In this document: positions 4,571-33,472 of the stretch, piece by piece
Position numbering within the stretch: position 1 is the stretch's first letter
How the letters are laid out: each line of letters starts with the position of its first letter
Assembly (NCBI RefSeq): GCF_010093205.1
Contig: NZ_PDWN01000004.1
Location: 62,001 to 126,000 of the forward strand
DNA from: Pseudoxanthomonas daejeonensis
GTDB lineage: Bacteria; Pseudomonadota; Gammaproteobacteria; Xanthomonadales; Xanthomonadaceae
Direction of reading: 5' to 3'
DNA: 64,000 nucleotides
Made by a program: the position numbers and the translations under genes
The notes under the pieces: model-generated
Databases searched by the model: none
What the model was told of the DNA's origin: nothing
What the model saw: the letters and a program-made list of their open reading frames with translations, nothing else

Positions 4571-5419
4571 TCAGCTTCGACGGTGCGCCAGCGCCTGGCC
4601 CAGGCGCACCGGTGATTCGGCGGCAAGCCCCGGCGCCAGCGTCGCTGCACCCGGCGGCAGCAGCACGATGACCGTCGAGCCGTAGTTGAAGCGCGCCATC
4701 TCGGCGAAACGCTCCAGCACGATGCCCTTGCCACGCCAGTCCTTGCGCGTGATGTCGTCGCCGTAGGCCGGGATCTCCTCACCGCTCCACACCGTTTCCA
4801 CGCCCGATACCAGCAGCGCACCGACCATCACCGAGGCCATCGGCCCGAAGTCGGTGTCGAAGTGGCAGACCAGCCGCTCGTTGCGCGCGAACAGTCGTGG
4901 CACCTTGCGGACCGCGGCCGGGCCGACGCTGAACAGCCGGCCGGGCACGTGCACGGTCTCGCGCAGGGTGCCTGTCCAGGGCATGTGCACGCGGTGGTAG
5001 TCGCGCGGCGACAGGTAGACGGTTGCGAAGCTGCCGCCGGCGAATACCCGCGCCGCTTCGCTGTCGCCGAGCAGTTCGGCCGCCGTGAACGACTGACCCT
5101 TGGCCTGGAAGATGCGGCCGTCGGCCTCGATCGCGCCGAGCTGGCTGATCCGCCCGTCGGCGGGCATCAGCAGCGCACGCGGATCCGGGTCGGGCGTGCG
5201 CGCGCCGGGCTTCAGCGCACGGGTGAAGAAAGCATTGAAGCTGGCGTACGACGCTGGATCCGGGTTGGCGGCCTCGGCCAGGTCGACATCGAAATTGCGC
5301 AGCACCGTGTCGATGAAGCGCTGCTTGAGCCAGGGGTTTTCCGAGTAGGCGGCGCTGCGCGCGATCGAGGACAGCAGCCGGTGCGGCAGCACCCAGCTCA
5401 GCGTGGTGGCCAGGCTCAC
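4571..5419 (-). CDS. psd: Phosphatidylserine decarboxylase proenzyme
   Basis: A 282-residue inner-membrane enzyme that decarboxylates phosphatidylserine to phosphatidylethanolamine. The self-cleavage site is GST at residues 247-249 (FNYGSTVIV), so S248 would become the pyruvoyl group of the short alpha chain. The protease-triad residues are visible: D88 in PADGR, H142/H145 in YHRVHMP, and S248. The start is the GTG at 5419, which overlaps the TGA stop of sco1 (5418-5416) as GTGA; the longer open frame upstream only covers sco1 in another frame. Translational coupling with sco1 is likely. Confidence 0.93.
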
Positions 5420-6069
5420 GGCGCGCGGTCCGCGGCAGTCAGCAGGGCCAGGTCGCTGGCGATGGCCTGCGGCTGGAACGGCGGGCGGATCAGCCCGGCC
5501 AGGCGGCCCTGCGGATCGAGCACCGCGATGTTCGCCGAGTGGTCCACGCTGTAGTCCTGCGGGTTCTGTTCGAAGTTCTTGCCCGGCACCTTCATGAAGA
5601 CGAAGCCGACGGAGGTGGCGAACTTCTCCAGCGCGGGCACGTCGGCGGTGGCGGCCAGCGTATCCGGGTGGAAGGCGTGGGCGTACTCGCCGGTCTTGCC
5701 GGGCGTGTCGCGGTCGGGGTCCACCGACACGAACAGCACGCGCGGGCGGGTGGATTCGGGCAACGCTTGCCACTGCTTCTGCGCCTGCGCCAGCTCCGCC
5801 AGGGTCGTGGGGCAAACGTCCGGGCAGAAGGTGAAACCCAGGAACACCAGGGTCCAGTGCCCGGCCAGTTCGCCGGCGACCAGCGGGGTGCCATCGGACT
5901 GGCGCAGGTTGAAGGCCGGCAGGTCCCGCGGCTGCGGAAGCAGGGTCACGGCCTGCAGCGCCGGCGCGGCCGGAGCGGTGTCGCCGCCGAGGAAATGGCG
6001 CGCGGCCAGCAGCCCCAGGCCGGCGGCCAGCGCGGCGACCAGGATGTAGCCGAAGGTGCGGTTGAACAT
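5416..6069 (-). CDS. SCO1/SenC copper chaperone
   Basis: A 217-residue membrane-anchored thioredoxin-fold protein of the SCO1/SenC/PrrC family, which delivers copper to or keeps reduced the CuA site of cytochrome oxidase. An N-terminal anchor is at about 7-24. The copper ligands are present: C82 and C86 in FCPDVCP and H177 in SVDHSAN. It is followed directly by psd with a 4-bp overlap. No cytochrome oxidase gene is in the window. Divergent from prmB across 132 bp. Confidence 0.92.
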
Positions 6070-6154
6070 GCGGAAGGCGTCCGGAAGCGGCTTTCGGGCC
6101 AGCCATGATACGTGCGGCAGCGGCGGGCAGGGCCGTCGTTGCCGGCCGATGGCC

Positions 6155-6160
6155 TATAAT
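6155..6160 (+). promoter_or_regulatory. Probable -10 element of prmB
   Basis: A perfect TATAAT stands in a GC-rich gap 42 bp before the prmB start. No good -35 box is seen at 17 bp, which is common in very GC-rich genomes. Confidence 0.5.
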
Positions 6161-6201
6161 CGCGGCCCGTTTCCGAACCAGCCGCCTGCGCGGCGCGCGC
6201 C

Positions 6202-7131
6202 ATGACCGCAGATCCGGCTGCCGAGCTGCACACGATCATCGACCTGATCCGCTACGGCGGCAGCCGCTTCAACGAAGCCGGGCTGACCTTCGGCCACAGC
6301 TACGACAACGCGATGGACGAGGCGACCCAGCTGGTCCTGCATGCGCTGCACCTGCCGCACGACCTGAGCCCGGTCTACGGCCAGTCGCGGCTGACCACCC
6401 GGGAAAAGCACAGGATCCTGGCCCTGTTCCAGCGCCGCATCGACGAGCGCGTGCCGGCCGCCTACCTGGCGGGCGAGGCGTGGTTCGCCGGCCTCAACTT
6501 CAAGAGCGACGCGCGCGCACTGGTGCCGCGCTCGCCGATCGCCGAGCTGATCGAAGGCGGCTTCGAGCCCTGGCTGGGCGGTCGCGAGGTGCGCCGCGCG
6601 CTGGACCTGTGCACCGGCTCGGGCTGTATCGCCATCGCCATGGGCCACTACAACCCGGACTGGCAGGTCGACGGCGTGGACATCAGCGACGACGCGCTGG
6701 CCCTGGCCGGTGAGAACAAGGCGCGCCTGCACGCCGACAACGTCACCCTGCTCAAGTCCGACCTGTTCGCCGGCCTGACCGGGCGCCACTACGAGCTGAT
6801 CGTCACCAATCCGCCGTACGTCACCGACGACGAGACCGACGCGTTGCCGAAGGAATACTCGTACGAACCGGAGCTGGGCCTGCGCGCCGGTCCGGATGGC
6901 CTGGACCTGGTGCTGAAGATCCTGCGCGACGCGCCGCTGCACCTGTCGCAGGACGGCCTGCTGATCTGCGAAGTCGGCGAGTCCGAGCAGCACCTGGTCA
7001 AGCTGCTGCCCGAGCTGGACCTGGCCTGGATCGAATTCAAGGTCGGGCAGATGGGCATCTTCGCAGTCGAGTGCCGCGAGCTGATCACGCACAACGCGCG
7101 CATCGCCGAGCTGGCCGCGCAGCGGAGATGA
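6202..7131 (+). CDS. prmB: Ribosomal protein L3 N5-glutamine methyltransferase
   Basis: A 309-residue SAM-dependent methyltransferase that methylates a glutamine of ribosomal protein L3. The SAM-binding loop is DLCTGSGCI (135-143), and the catalytic NPPY motif is at 203-206, as in the HemK/PrmC superfamily. Length and the N-terminal segment ([20 protein letters not shown]) point to PrmB rather than to the release-factor enzyme PrmC. It is followed by aroC, a common arrangement in gammaproteobacteria. Confidence 0.93.
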
Positions 7132-7271
7132 CGGCGCATCCGCGCGTGCGCTGAACACGTGCGACCGTTACCGCGGCAACGTTTCCGGCCACGCTGCCGC
7201 ACTGCAGCAGGCAGCGCCGAATATGCGATCCTTGCCCGTCTCCCCACCGGTTCCCCCCGCGGAGCGGCGCC

Positions 7272-8387
7272 TTGAGCAGCAACACCTTCGGCAAACTGTT
7301 GTCGGTCACCACCTTCGGCGAATCGCATGGGCCGGCCATCGGCTGCGTCGTCGACGGCTGCCCGCCGGGCCTGGAGCTCGCAGCGGAGGAGTTCGCGCAC
7401 GACCTGCAACGCCGCGCCACCGGCAAGTCGCGCCACACCTCGGCGCGACGCGAAGCCGACGAGGTCGAGATCCTTTCCGGCGTGTACGAGGGCCGCACCA
7501 CCGGCACGCCGATCGCGCTGCTGGTCCGCAACACGGATGCGCGCAGCAAGGACTACGCAGACATCGCCGCGCAGTTCCGCCCGGGCCACGCCGACTACAG
7601 CTACTGGCAGAAGTACGGCATCCGCGATCCGCGTGGCGGCGGGCGCAGCTCGGCGCGCGAGACCACCATGCGCGTGGCCGCCGCGGTGATCGCCAAGAAG
7701 TGGCTGCAGCAGCGCCATGGCGTCAGCGTGCGTGGATTCCTCGCCCAGATCGGCGAGGTGAAGCCGGGTGGCTTCGACTGGAGCGCGGTGGAGGACAATC
7801 CGTTCTTCTGGCCGCATGCGCCGCAGGTGCCGGAACTCGAAAGCTACATGGACGCCCTGCGCAAGTCCGGCGATTCGGTCGGTGCGCGCGTGACCGTGGT
7901 TGCCGACGGCGTGCCGCCGGGCTGGGGCGAGCCGATCTACGGCAAGCTCGATGGTGAGCTCGCCTCGGCGCTGATGAGCATCAACGCGGTCAAGGGCGTG
8001 GAGATCGGCGACGGCTTCGACGTGGTCGCGCAGAAGGGAACTCATCATCGCGACCTGATCGCGCCGGACGGGTTCGCCAGCAACCATGCCGGCGGCATCC
8101 TCGGCGGCATCTCCACCGGGCAGCAGGTGGTGGCGTCCATCGCGCTCAAGCCGACCTCCAGCCTGCGCCTGCCCGGTCCGACGGTCGACGTGAACGGCAA
8201 TCCTGTCGAGGTGGTCACCACCGGTCGCCATGATCCCTGTGTCGGTATCCGCGCCACGCCCATCGCCGAGGCGATGGTCGCGCTGGTGCTGATGGACCAG
8301 GCGCTGCGCCATCGCGCCCAGTGCGGCGATGTCGGCACGATCACGCCGCGCATCCCGGCCGGTCCTGGCCTGGGCGAAGCGGAATAG
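7272..8387 (+). CDS. aroC: Chorismate synthase
   Basis: A 371-residue flavin-dependent enzyme that converts 5-enolpyruvylshikimate-3-phosphate to chorismate, the last step of the shikimate pathway. Family signatures are [12 protein letters not shown] near the N-terminus, the GRSSARETT segment at about 126-134 and the [16 protein letters not shown] segment. Translation starts at a TTG (7272), supported by GGAG at 7261-7264 with 7-nt spacing and by the family's conserved N-terminus (SNTFGKL). Chorismate feeds the trp genes 5 kb downstream. The next gene starts 5 bp after the stop. Confidence 0.96.
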
Positions 8388-30203: not shown

Positions 30204-30238
30204 GGGCGTCACAGGCGTCGCGAGCCGACAAACGGCAC

Positions 30239-30283
30239 TTGACTTGCTTTTTTAAGCAATTAGCATATTAGTTAAATAAGTAA
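30239..30283 (+). promoter_or_regulatory. AT-rich promoter/operator of the membrane protein-ArsR pair
   Basis: In a very AT-rich island, TTGACT (30239-30244) and TAGCAT (30261-30266, 16-bp spacing) form a candidate promoter. The spacer contains TTGCTT-TTTT-AAGCAA (30244-30259). Next to the expected start is TTAGTTAAATAAGTAA (30268-30283), an interrupted palindrome of the form TTA-n-TTA-nn-TAA-n-TAA, similar to ArsR/SmtB-family operators. Repression by the ArsR protein encoded downstream is inferred. Confidence 0.55.
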
Positions 30284-30322
30284 TTCATTACCGATCAACC
30301 GACCGCAGAAGGAGCTACCGCC

Positions 30323-30739
30323 ATGACACTCGAACTGGGATACCTGCTGTACCTGGGCGTTTCCATCGCCATGACCATCTGGGTGGCGCGTACGCTGTCT
30401 AAGAATGGCGAGGTGTTCCTGGTCAAGTGCTTCGGCCAGGACGAACAGCTCGCGAAGTCGACCAACCACCTGTTGGTGGTGGGGTTCTACCTGGTCAACA
30501 TCGGCTTCATCGCCCTGCGCATGGATGGCTGGAACGAGGGCAGGGCGGTCGCCTCCATGATTCCCTACGTGGCGGCCAAGATCGGCCTGTCGGTACTGGT
30601 CCTGGGCGCGATGCACTTCTTCAACATGGCGATGATCGCCCGCTATGGACGCACGGTCGCCAACTGGGCGCACGGCCAGGAAGCGATGCGCGCGCCGCTG
30701 CCGGCGCACCTGCCGCCGCTGCCGCCGCAGCAGCGCTGA
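30323..30739 (+). CDS. Integral membrane protein, function unknown
   Basis: A 138-residue membrane protein with about three transmembrane helices (residues about 4-22, 48-66 and 82-104) and a Pro-rich C-terminus (APLPAHLPPLPPQQR). I do not recognise a named family. It has a strong ribosome-binding site (AAGGAG, 8 nt before the ATG) and an AT-rich promoter with a likely operator. The next gene encodes an ArsR-family regulator 129 bp downstream, which suggests that expression of this protein responds to some signal read by that regulator. Confidence 0.78.
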   Translation: MTLELGYLLYLGVSIAMTIWVARTLSKNGEVFLVKCFGQDEQLAKSTNHLLVVGFYLVNIGFIALRMDGWNEGRAVASMIPYVAAKIGLSVLVLGAMHFFNMAMIARYGRTVANWAHGQEAMRAPLPAHLPPLPPQQR

Positions 30740-31238: not shown

Positions 31239-31958
31239 ATGACCGTCCGCCTCAACAAGCACATCGCCGAAACCGGCTTCTGTTCGCGCCGCGAGGCCGA
31301 TCGCCTGATCGCCGCGCGCCGCGTCACCGTGAACGGCCAGCCGGCCGGGATGGGCGCGGTGGTCGGGGAGGGCGACACGGTGCTGGTCGACGGCCAGCCG
31401 CTGAAGGTGCGCACGGCCAAGGCCGGCAAGCGTCGGCACGTCTACATCGCGCTGAACAAGCCGGTCGGGGTGACCTGCACGACCGAGAGCTCGGTCGACG
31501 GAAACATCGTGGACTTCATCGGCCACGAGCAAAGGATCTTCCCGATCGGTCGCCTGGACAAGGATTCCGAGGGCCTGATCCTGCTGACCAGCAACGGCGA
31601 CATCGTCAACCAGATCCTGCGTGCGGAGAACCGCCACCAGAAGGAGTACCTGGTGGCGGTCAACAAGCCGGTGACCGACGAGTTCCTGCGCGGCATGTCG
31701 CGCGGGGTGCGGATCCACGGCGAGACGACCCTGCCATGCCGCACCGCGCGGATCGCGAAGTTCGGTTTCCGCATCGTGCTCGAGCAGGGCCTCAACCGCC
31801 AGATCCGGCTGATGGCCGCCGCCTTCGATTACCGGGTGACCCAGTTGCGCCGGGTGCGGATCGACAACATCAAGCTGGGCGCGCTCAAGCCCGGCCAGTG
31901 GCGCAACCTCAGCGAGGCCGAACTGCAGGGCCTGCTGCCCGGGCACCCGGACTGGTGA
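31239..31958 (+). CDS. rluF: 23S rRNA pseudouridine synthase, RluF type
   Basis: A 239-residue RsuA/RluB/RluF-family enzyme. An N-terminal S4 RNA-binding domain (about 1-60, LNKHIAETGFCSRREADRLI) precedes the catalytic domain with D107 in GRLDKDSEGLILLT. The KDSEG form of the motif and the length suggest RluF, which modifies U2604 of 23S rRNA. C-terminal blocks (GLNRQIRLMAAAFDYRVTQL) agree. The start is the ATG at 31239. Confidence 0.88.
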   Translation: MTVRLNKHIAETGFCSRREADRLIAARRVTVNGQPAGMGAVVGEGDTVLVDGQPLKVRTAKAGKRRHVYIALNKPVGVTCTTESSVDGNIVDFIGHEQRIFPIGRLDKDSEGLILLTSNGDIVNQILRAENRHQKEYLVAVNKPVTDEFLRGMSRGVRIHGETTLPCRTARIAKFGFRIVLEQGLNRQIRLMAAAFDYRVTQLRRVRIDNIKLGALKPGQWRNLSEAELQGLLPGHPDW

Positions 31959-31975
31959 CGCGGGGCCGGGCGGCC

Positions 31976-32017
31976 TTGATCCGGATCATTCCCGGACGCC
32001 GTCGCCGGGAATACGAT
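31976..32017 (+). promoter_or_regulatory. FNR-type site and promoter of the universal stress gene
   Basis: TTGAT-CCGG-ATCAT (31976-31989) matches 9 of 10 positions of the FNR/ANR consensus half-sites. A TACGAT -10 box lies at 32012-32017. If transcription begins 7 bp after it (32024), the FNR site is centred at -41.5, the standard class II position. The start codon of the stress gene is at 32054. Confidence 0.6.
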
Positions 32018-32053
32018 CGATCCATACCCTGACGCGGCAATCGGAGCGAAGCC

Positions 32054-32476
32054 ATGAAAATCCTGCTGGCAGTGGATGGCAGTGCGGTCGGCGCTGCGGC
32101 GGTACGCCGCGTGGCGAAACTGGCGAAGGCGCTGAAGGCGCCGCCCGAGCTGCACGTGCTGCAGGTGGTGCCGCGGCTGTCCAAGGCCGCCGAGAAGGAA
32201 TTCGGCAAGGCCGGCCCGGGCCGCTACTACGAGGCGCAGTACGAGGCGACGATGGCGGTGGTGCGCCCGCACCTCAAGCGCGCGCGGCTGGCGTTCCAGG
32301 AGCGCAAGGCGATCGGCGACGTGGTGCCGACCCTGCTCGACGAGGCCAAGGCGGTGAAGGCGGAGATGATCGTGATCGGCAGCCACGGCAAGGGCGCGCT
32401 GAAGAGCCTGCTGCTGGGCTCGGTGACGCAGAAGGTGGTCGCGTTGAGTCCGGTGCCGGTGCTGGTCGTGCACTGA
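32054..32476 (+). CDS. Universal stress protein (UspA family)
   Basis: A 140-residue single-domain universal stress protein. The ATP-binding pattern G-2x-G-9x-G-S/T is present (GSHGKGALKSLLLGSVTQKV near residues 113-132), and the N-terminal strand MKILLAVDGSAVGAAAVRR fits the family. GAGCGAAG before the ATG can serve as ribosome-binding site. An FNR-type site upstream suggests induction at low oxygen, as seen for several universal stress genes of Pseudomonas. Confidence 0.92.
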   Translation: MKILLAVDGSAVGAAAVRRVAKLAKALKAPPELHVLQVVPRLSKAAEKEFGKAGPGRYYEAQYEATMAVVRPHLKRARLAFQERKAIGDVVPTLLDEAKAVKAEMIVIGSHGKGALKSLLLGSVTQKVVALSPVPVLVVH

Positions 32477-32503
32477 GGCTCCACCGGGCAAGGCTGCGCC
32501 AGG

Positions 32504-33472
32504 TCAGTCGACCAGTTGCTTGGCCTCGGATGTGCCGAGCATTTCCGGATGCTGCACCTCGGCGTCCGGGGCTGCACCGGAGCGTCGTCGCGCCAGCAGC
32601 GGATCCAGGAACACCGCGCCCAGGATCACCGCCACGCCCAGGTAGAACAGCGGCGTGAGTTCGTGCTGCTCGCCCAGCAGCAGCGCGGCCAGGATGATCG
32701 CGTAGACCGGCTCCAGGTTGGTCGCCAGCTGCACGGTGTACGCGCTCAGGTGGCGCAGCGCGACCAGTGACAGCGCGAATGGCAGCAGGGTGCAGCCCAG
32801 TGCCAGCACCAGCAGCAGTGCGCCGTCGTGCAGGCCGGGAACCACCAGCAGGTCGCCGGCGAAGGCGGGCAGCAGCAGCGGCATCAATGGAGCCAGCGCG
32901 GTCAGGGCCAGGGTACCGGCGCCCAGCTCGATCGCGGTGACGGTCAGCGGATCGGCGTGTTCGACCAGGCGCTTGTTGTACGAGCCGAAGATCGCCACCA
33001 GCAGCGCCGACAGCGCGCCGACCGCCACGCCCAGGCGCATGCCATCCGGTACCCCGCCGACGACCAGCGCCACGCCGGGCAGGACCGCCACGCCCAGCGC
33101 CAGTTCGCGCGGGCGGAACGGACGCTTGGCCACCCACGGTTCGATCACCGCGGTGAACACCGGCGCCAGGGCAATACAGGTCGCGGCCACCGAGGCATTG
33201 GCCAGCTTGATCGCGCCATAGAAGGTCAGCCAGTGCAGTGCGACCACCACGCCGATGCCGGCATAGGCCAGCACCAGCCGCGGCGGCAGCGCGCGCAGTC
33301 CGCGCCAGACCCGCGGTACCAGCGCCAGTGCGGCGACCACCAGCAGCATCCGCCACCACACCAGCGGCAGCGCGGGCAGGCTGATCAGCTTGCCGAGGAT
33401 CGCGGTGAACCCCCACAGCAGGACGCAGAAATGGATTTGCAGTTGCGCGCAGGTGCGATCGGTCATCGGCAT
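32504..33472 (-). CDS. EamA/DMT-superfamily transporter
   Basis: A 322-residue inner-membrane protein with about ten transmembrane helices in two EamA repeats (first half about 10-145, second about 158-290). The first repeat contains FYGAIKLANASVAATCIAL, and the second LSAYTVQLATNLEPVYAI. The substrate is unknown; related proteins export amino acids and metabolites. Its start codon is 45 bp from the stop of the DUF2238 gene, same strand. Confidence 0.85.
   Translation of the reverse strand: MPMTDRTCAQLQIHFCVLLWGFTAILGKLISLPALPLVWWRMLLVVAALALVPRVWRGLRALPPRLVLAYAGIGVVVALHWLTFYGAIKLANASVAATCIALAPVFTAVIEPWVAKRPFRPRELALGVAVLPGVALVVGGVPDGMRLGVAVGALSALLVAIFGSYNKRLVEHADPLTVTAIELGAGTLALTALAPLMPLLLPAFAGDLLVVPGLHDGALLLVLALGCTLLPFALSLVALRHLSAYTVQLATNLEPVYAIILAALLLGEQHELTPLFYLGVAVILGAVFLDPLLARRRSGAAPDAEVQHPEMLGTSEAKQLVD

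Follow-up and report, generated by a model that had tools for sequence, protein, structure and literature searches.

The window, by which we mean the whole 64,000-nucleotide stretch of Pseudoxanthomonas daejeonensis DNA that was analyzed, carries a lone universal stress protein (usp) gene, with an RluF-type pseudouridine synthase gene (rluF) on one side and an EamA gene on the other. Between the end of the rluF-type gene (31958) and the start of usp (32054) lies a gap of 95 bp, which contains an FNR-type box. The features of this region are as follows:

31239-31958, + strand: RluF-type pseudouridine synthase gene, the upstream neighbor (TIGR00093, above cut-off)
31976-31989, + strand: FNR-type box TTGATCCGGATCAT (TTGAT-CCGG-ATCAT), center 31982.5, predicted center at -41.5
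31989-31994, + strand: TTCCCG at the -35 position, assigned from sequence; poor, 3/6 to TTGACA
32012-32017, + strand: -10 element TACGAT, 36 nt after the box start
32024, + strand: predicted transcript start, placed by a 6-nt gap after the -10 element
32043-32046, + strand: probable ribosome-binding site GGAG before the usp ATG, assigned from sequence
32054-32476, + strand: universal stress protein gene, 140 aa, single Usp domain (PF00582, 92.6 bits, cut-off 24)

Residues 2-140 of the Usp align to positions 4-141 of the 141-position PF00582 profile, such that the domain spans the whole protein, and its relatives in the PDB include 1wjg and 1mjh. A G-x2-G-x9-G-S pattern is present by eye, which we take to be the motif of ATP-binding-type Usp proteins, and ATP binding by this Usp is thus putative. 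The upstream neighbor scores 296 bits against the NCBIfam RluF model, under the cut-off of 318. Farther upstream, we note an open reading frame of 138 aa (30323-30739) with no Pfam match, preceded by an AT-rich stretch (30235-30300) that is unusual for this genome. The second usp gene of the genome is without a box (best match 6/10).

The original prediction had placed TTGAT-CCGG-ATCAT exactly 41.5 bp before the start point expected from TACGAT, and the coordinates of the box, of the -10 element and of the predicted start at 32024 all proved exact, with 41.5 bp separating the box center from the predicted start. This is the box position described for FNR-regulated promoters in the accessible text of PMC4886647. 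The box agrees with the consensus TTGATNNNNATCAA at 9/10 positions and TACGAT with TATAAT at 4/6, and the poor -35 (3/6), together with a simple sigma-70 scan that returned no promoter in 31850-32150, fits an activator-dependent promoter. A terminator scan of the same interval was likewise negative. No RNA families were found at gathering score in 31500-32600. Since the -10 element reaches just 4/6 and the sigma-70 scan found no promoter, the argument that two elements agree in their spacing, which had been presented as unlikely to arise by chance, is only moderate, and weaker than claimed, when a single sequence is considered. A perfect inverted repeat of 8 bp, ATTCCCGG / CCGGGAAT, also lies at 31988-31995 and 32005-32012, between the box and the -10 element; we weighed it as a possible second operator and rejected this, because by eye it is absent from congeners.

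In the window, the box pattern with at most one mismatch occurs twice, compared to 0.30 matches expected, and two matches are reached in 4 of 100 shuffles; the other match, at 7971, falls inside a predicted gene according to the script's gene calls. When matches of at least 8/10 are counted, the window holds 15, of which two besides the usp box are intergenic (34913 and 53268). Across the whole genome there are 63 sites with at most one mismatch compared to 7 for the reversed pattern, and 4 perfect sites compared to 0.

For the comparison of orthologues, we used three sets. In the congeneric set (the window genome and 16 congeners), the gene is present in 12 of 17 genomes, and a box of at least 8/10 precedes it in 11 of these 12, starting 73-81 bp before the ATG. 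The single exception, G014, is a genome only 57% complete. All 11 box-bearing congeneric orthologues also carry TAnnAT 35-37 nt after the box start, and the predicted box center ranges among the orthologues from -40.5 to -42.5. In the family sample (297 genomes drawn from a larger group, 78 of them with a usp homologue), a box of at least 8/10 lies within 200 bp upstream of 46 of the 78 homologues, compared to an average of 1.15 in shuffles (at most 5 in any of 60), 0/78 for the reversed pattern, 4/78 for the first 200 coding bases and 4/78 for positions -400 to -201. At the stricter threshold of at least 9/10, 39 of the 78 retain a box, compared to 0.05 in shuffles. The offset of TAnnnT from the box start is equally constrained among the 46 box-bearers, with 8 cases at 35 nt, 12 at 36, 2 at 37 and 3 at 28, and none at 29-34 or 38-45.

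The third set comprises named records, taken as the best 80 of 446 and reduced to 79 by removal of one record (L236) with too short an upstream region; 20 of these repeat genomes of the family sample. Among them the box is found in 40 of 79, with 2, 1 and 3 matches of at least 8/10 in the far-upstream, reversed and coding controls, respectively. Restricting these best 80 of 446 to the 59 homologues outside the family sample leaves a box in 24, with TAnnnT at 35 nt (7 cases), 36 (7), 40 (2) and 45 (1), and outside Lysobacteraceae (sorted by title, with Tahibacter omitted) the box is present in 21 of 54 at 8/10 or better and in 10 of 54 at 9/10 or better. The nearest named relative among the best 80 of 446 is Pseudoxanthomonas kaohsiungensis, a congener of the window genome, whose Usp is 82% identical and whose usp upstream region is identical to that of the congener G007. 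In P. kaohsiungensis DSM 17583 (L177) the box is perfect and is followed by TACCAT, 35 nt from the box start. In five Comamonas homologues (L215, L225, L226, L238 and L243) the dyad is looser, TTGAG-N4-GTCAA, and is followed by TAGTCT or TAGGCT at 36 nt from the box start; here the spacing may have been retained as the box sequence drifted. The comparative data thus make the spacing argument a strong one, and the site is indeed conserved before orthologues, as the original prediction called for.

The prediction likewise depended on an oxygen sensor of the Crp/Fnr family being encoded, and the genome, which encodes four proteins with a cNMP domain, has a canonical FNR as well as an FnrL-like protein. 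The canonical FNR (C9:20500-21252), when aligned to the FNR of a solved structure, shows C-x2-C-x5-C, a fourth cysteine and an ETVSR helix, and its best model is NCBIfam Fnr, at 199 bits, under the curated cut-off of 228. The second sensor is FnrL/FnrN-like (C31:122023-122763 of the window genome, G000), with C-x2-C-x7-C, a fourth cysteine and an ETVSR helix, and its best model is FnrL, at 148.5 bits, under the cut-off of 300. Its gene adjoins no obvious target, and its cysteines are kept in similar proteins of other genera. The third protein is of the CRP/Clp type, and the fourth has, by eye, a GGDEF-like part. An FNR-type regulator that has both an ETxSR helix and the four cluster cysteines is therefore encoded in the genome; as described in the accessible part of PMC7349173, ETxSR binds TTGAT and the four cysteines hold the cluster.

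Further FNR-type boxes precede genes that are linked to low oxygen, namely ccoN, a bacteriohemerythrin gene, hemF and hemN-fnr (L128: hemN 5078-6481, fnr 6501-7256, with the box before hemN), and another sits between a divergent gene and ubiD, which is itself followed by ubiU. Seven stretches of the genome, chosen for boxes or Crp/Fnr genes among the matches listed and hence providing no unbiased sample of a regulon, contain 14 boxes of at least 9/10, of which nine were aligned with their downstream sequence and five left aside. Four of the nine (before bacteriohemerythrin, hemF and hemN, and at C9:40856) are followed by TAnnnT 35-36 nt after the box start, as at usp, and for the other five, ccoN included, TAnnnT is absent at this distance. 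Three FNR-type boxes lie close together at C9:51257-51358 (L129 15258-15359), before a gene that we take by eye to be of the nir type.

Taking these observations together, we consider it probable, with good confidence, that the 95-bp gap is a class II, activator-dependent FNR-type promoter of usp, activated at low oxygen and most likely by canonical FNR, and usp is very probably switched on when oxygen runs low. Low oxygen leaves the iron-sulfur cluster of FNR intact. With falling oxygen, a dimer of an iron-sulfur protein of the FNR type, most likely canonical FNR, would bind TTGATCCGGATCAT at -41.5, where it would substitute for the weak -35 contact and bring RNA polymerase to TACGAT, so that Usp would be produced at low oxygen together with the cbb3 oxidase and the products of the heme synthesis and anaerobic ubiquinone genes.

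The protein that acts at the box is a separate matter from the class of the site, and here the distribution of sensors across the family is informative. Canonical FNR, scored as present at E <= 1e-60 (a score from which unread stretches could hide some genes), is found in 177 of the 297 family genomes. The box does not follow it, because it is present before 36 of 61 homologues in genomes with canonical FNR and before 10 of 17 in genomes where none was detected; dropping G016 (87% complete) and G203 (with unread letters in its loci) changes the latter to 8 of 15. In G203 (L121, a record with unread stretches), only one perfect box was found, and it is located before usp, and in G173 the five perfect boxes that the genome has all fall within 13.5 kb around usp. 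A tree of the 78 proteins contained too few informative pairs on box versus FNR, with 25 of its 74 inner branches open. Of the FNR class II reading, the site class is thus supported by the sensor and by conservation, and the acting protein is less settled, given the second FNR-like sensor and the lineages in which the box persists although no canonical FNR was detected.

These data bear on the possibility that the box is oxygen-linked, but is served mainly by the FnrL/FnrN-like protein (C31:122023-122763) or by both sensors jointly. This protein has the cluster cysteines and the same ETVSR helix as canonical FNR, and three of the eight box-bearing genomes just mentioned (G237, G280 and G308) combine a perfect box with the FnrL-like type and no detected canonical FNR. 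However, in group g47, whose 13 homologues are among the 32 of 78 without a box, a box of at least 8/10 occurs in none of the 13 although 11 of these genomes have the FnrL-like type and 7 have FNR, and the other five of the eight, all of group g15, have the box with neither sensor type detected. We also considered whether the box tracks the FnrL-like type and rejected this, as there is no consistent link across homologues. Overall, we regard a leading role for the FnrL-like protein, alone or shared, as unlikely, while giving it real weight.

The g15 genomes encode another Crp/Fnr protein 6-7 kb from usp, which, as read in G152 only, lacks CxxC and carries an ETVTR helix. More broadly, in L120 (G152), L118 (G104) and L119 (G060), and partly in L122 (G139) and L123 (G165), the usp homologue belongs to a cluster that also includes more Usp genes and genes for a FixK-like Crp/Fnr protein, a response regulator and a PAS-containing hybrid kinase; where read, the FixK-like protein lacks CxxC and has an ETVTR helix, and the L120 cluster also has cydA. 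One possible, if tentative, view of these distributions is that the usp promoter, whose box lies near -41.5, persists longer than any one of its regulators, such that canonical FNR, FnrL-like proteins and FixK-like proteins without CxxC would interchange across Lysobacteraceae and some betaproteobacterial homologues, with the FixK-like protein encoded near usp and, in one genome, alongside cytochrome bd. Judging from the sequences compared, the box belongs to the FNR class, and the acting member of that class may differ between lineages.

Two further explanations fare far worse. That a CRP/Clp-type protein acts on the box, rather than one of the FNR type, is very improbable: the third cNMP-domain protein does belong to the same superfamily, with 313 bits compared to a cut-off of 266, but CRP-type sites have the form TGTGA-N6-TCACA, from which the box differs, and the helix of the encoded CRP-type protein is without ETxSR. 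A chance match before an ordinary promoter, for which the 0.30 matches expected per window and the 4/6 of the -10 element could be cited, can hardly account for conservation at a fixed spacing that stands against near-zero controls.

The preferred reading, of an FNR-type class II promoter, places usp in familiar company. In Pseudomonas aeruginosa, according to the accessible text of PMC8509486 and PMC8575079, anaerobic expression of uspK (PA3309), uspN (PA4352), uspL, uspM and uspO needs the FNR homologue Anr, which bears out the statement that universal stress genes are anaerobic targets in Pseudomonas. The window gene resembles these Anr-controlled genes in being a usp gene, in its case one predicted to be under FNR-type control; it comes from another family. 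Furthermore, two Usp domains are present in each of uspL, uspM and uspO, as the accessible part of a review has it, whereas the window Usp has one. The predicted promoter itself is like the class II FNR promoters known from Escherichia coli and the promoter of cld in Ideonella dechloratans, which, in the accessible parts of PMC4886647 and PMC7349173, have a box of the TTGATN4ATCAA type at -41.5 and an activator with ETxSR and four cysteines; those promoters were tested by experiment, whereas that of the window is predicted from sequence.

A third comparison is with Burkholderia cenocepacia, where, as far as the accessible text of PMC6127331 and PMC9733578 describes it, usp genes of the lxa locus are up at low oxygen and an Anr-like CRP-family protein has been proposed. 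That locus has six usp genes among its 50 genes, whereas the window usp stands alone: no lxa-like island, with several usp genes and a regulator clustered, was found in the window. Such clusters occur in some relatives, and the usp clusters described above (L118-L120 and others) resemble the lxa locus. The literature covered on FNR and usp in Xanthomonas, Stenotrophomonas, Pseudoxanthomonas and Xanthomonadales, a coverage outside which most subscription journals fall, contained no report of the window usp promoter, and the main text of an anammox meta-regulon paper (PMC8510549) is without the term "universal stress". The kind of promoter is thus already known, and the window usp is an ordinary, well supported case of it.

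By analogy with the Anr-dependent usp genes, the window Usp may aid survival of energy shortage without oxygen. The finding connects a solitary universal stress gene with low-oxygen respiration and provides a testable low-oxygen regulon for Pseudoxanthomonas and its relatives, and those relatives that have the box but no detected canonical FNR would offer natural cases for the exchange of regulators at a fixed promoter.
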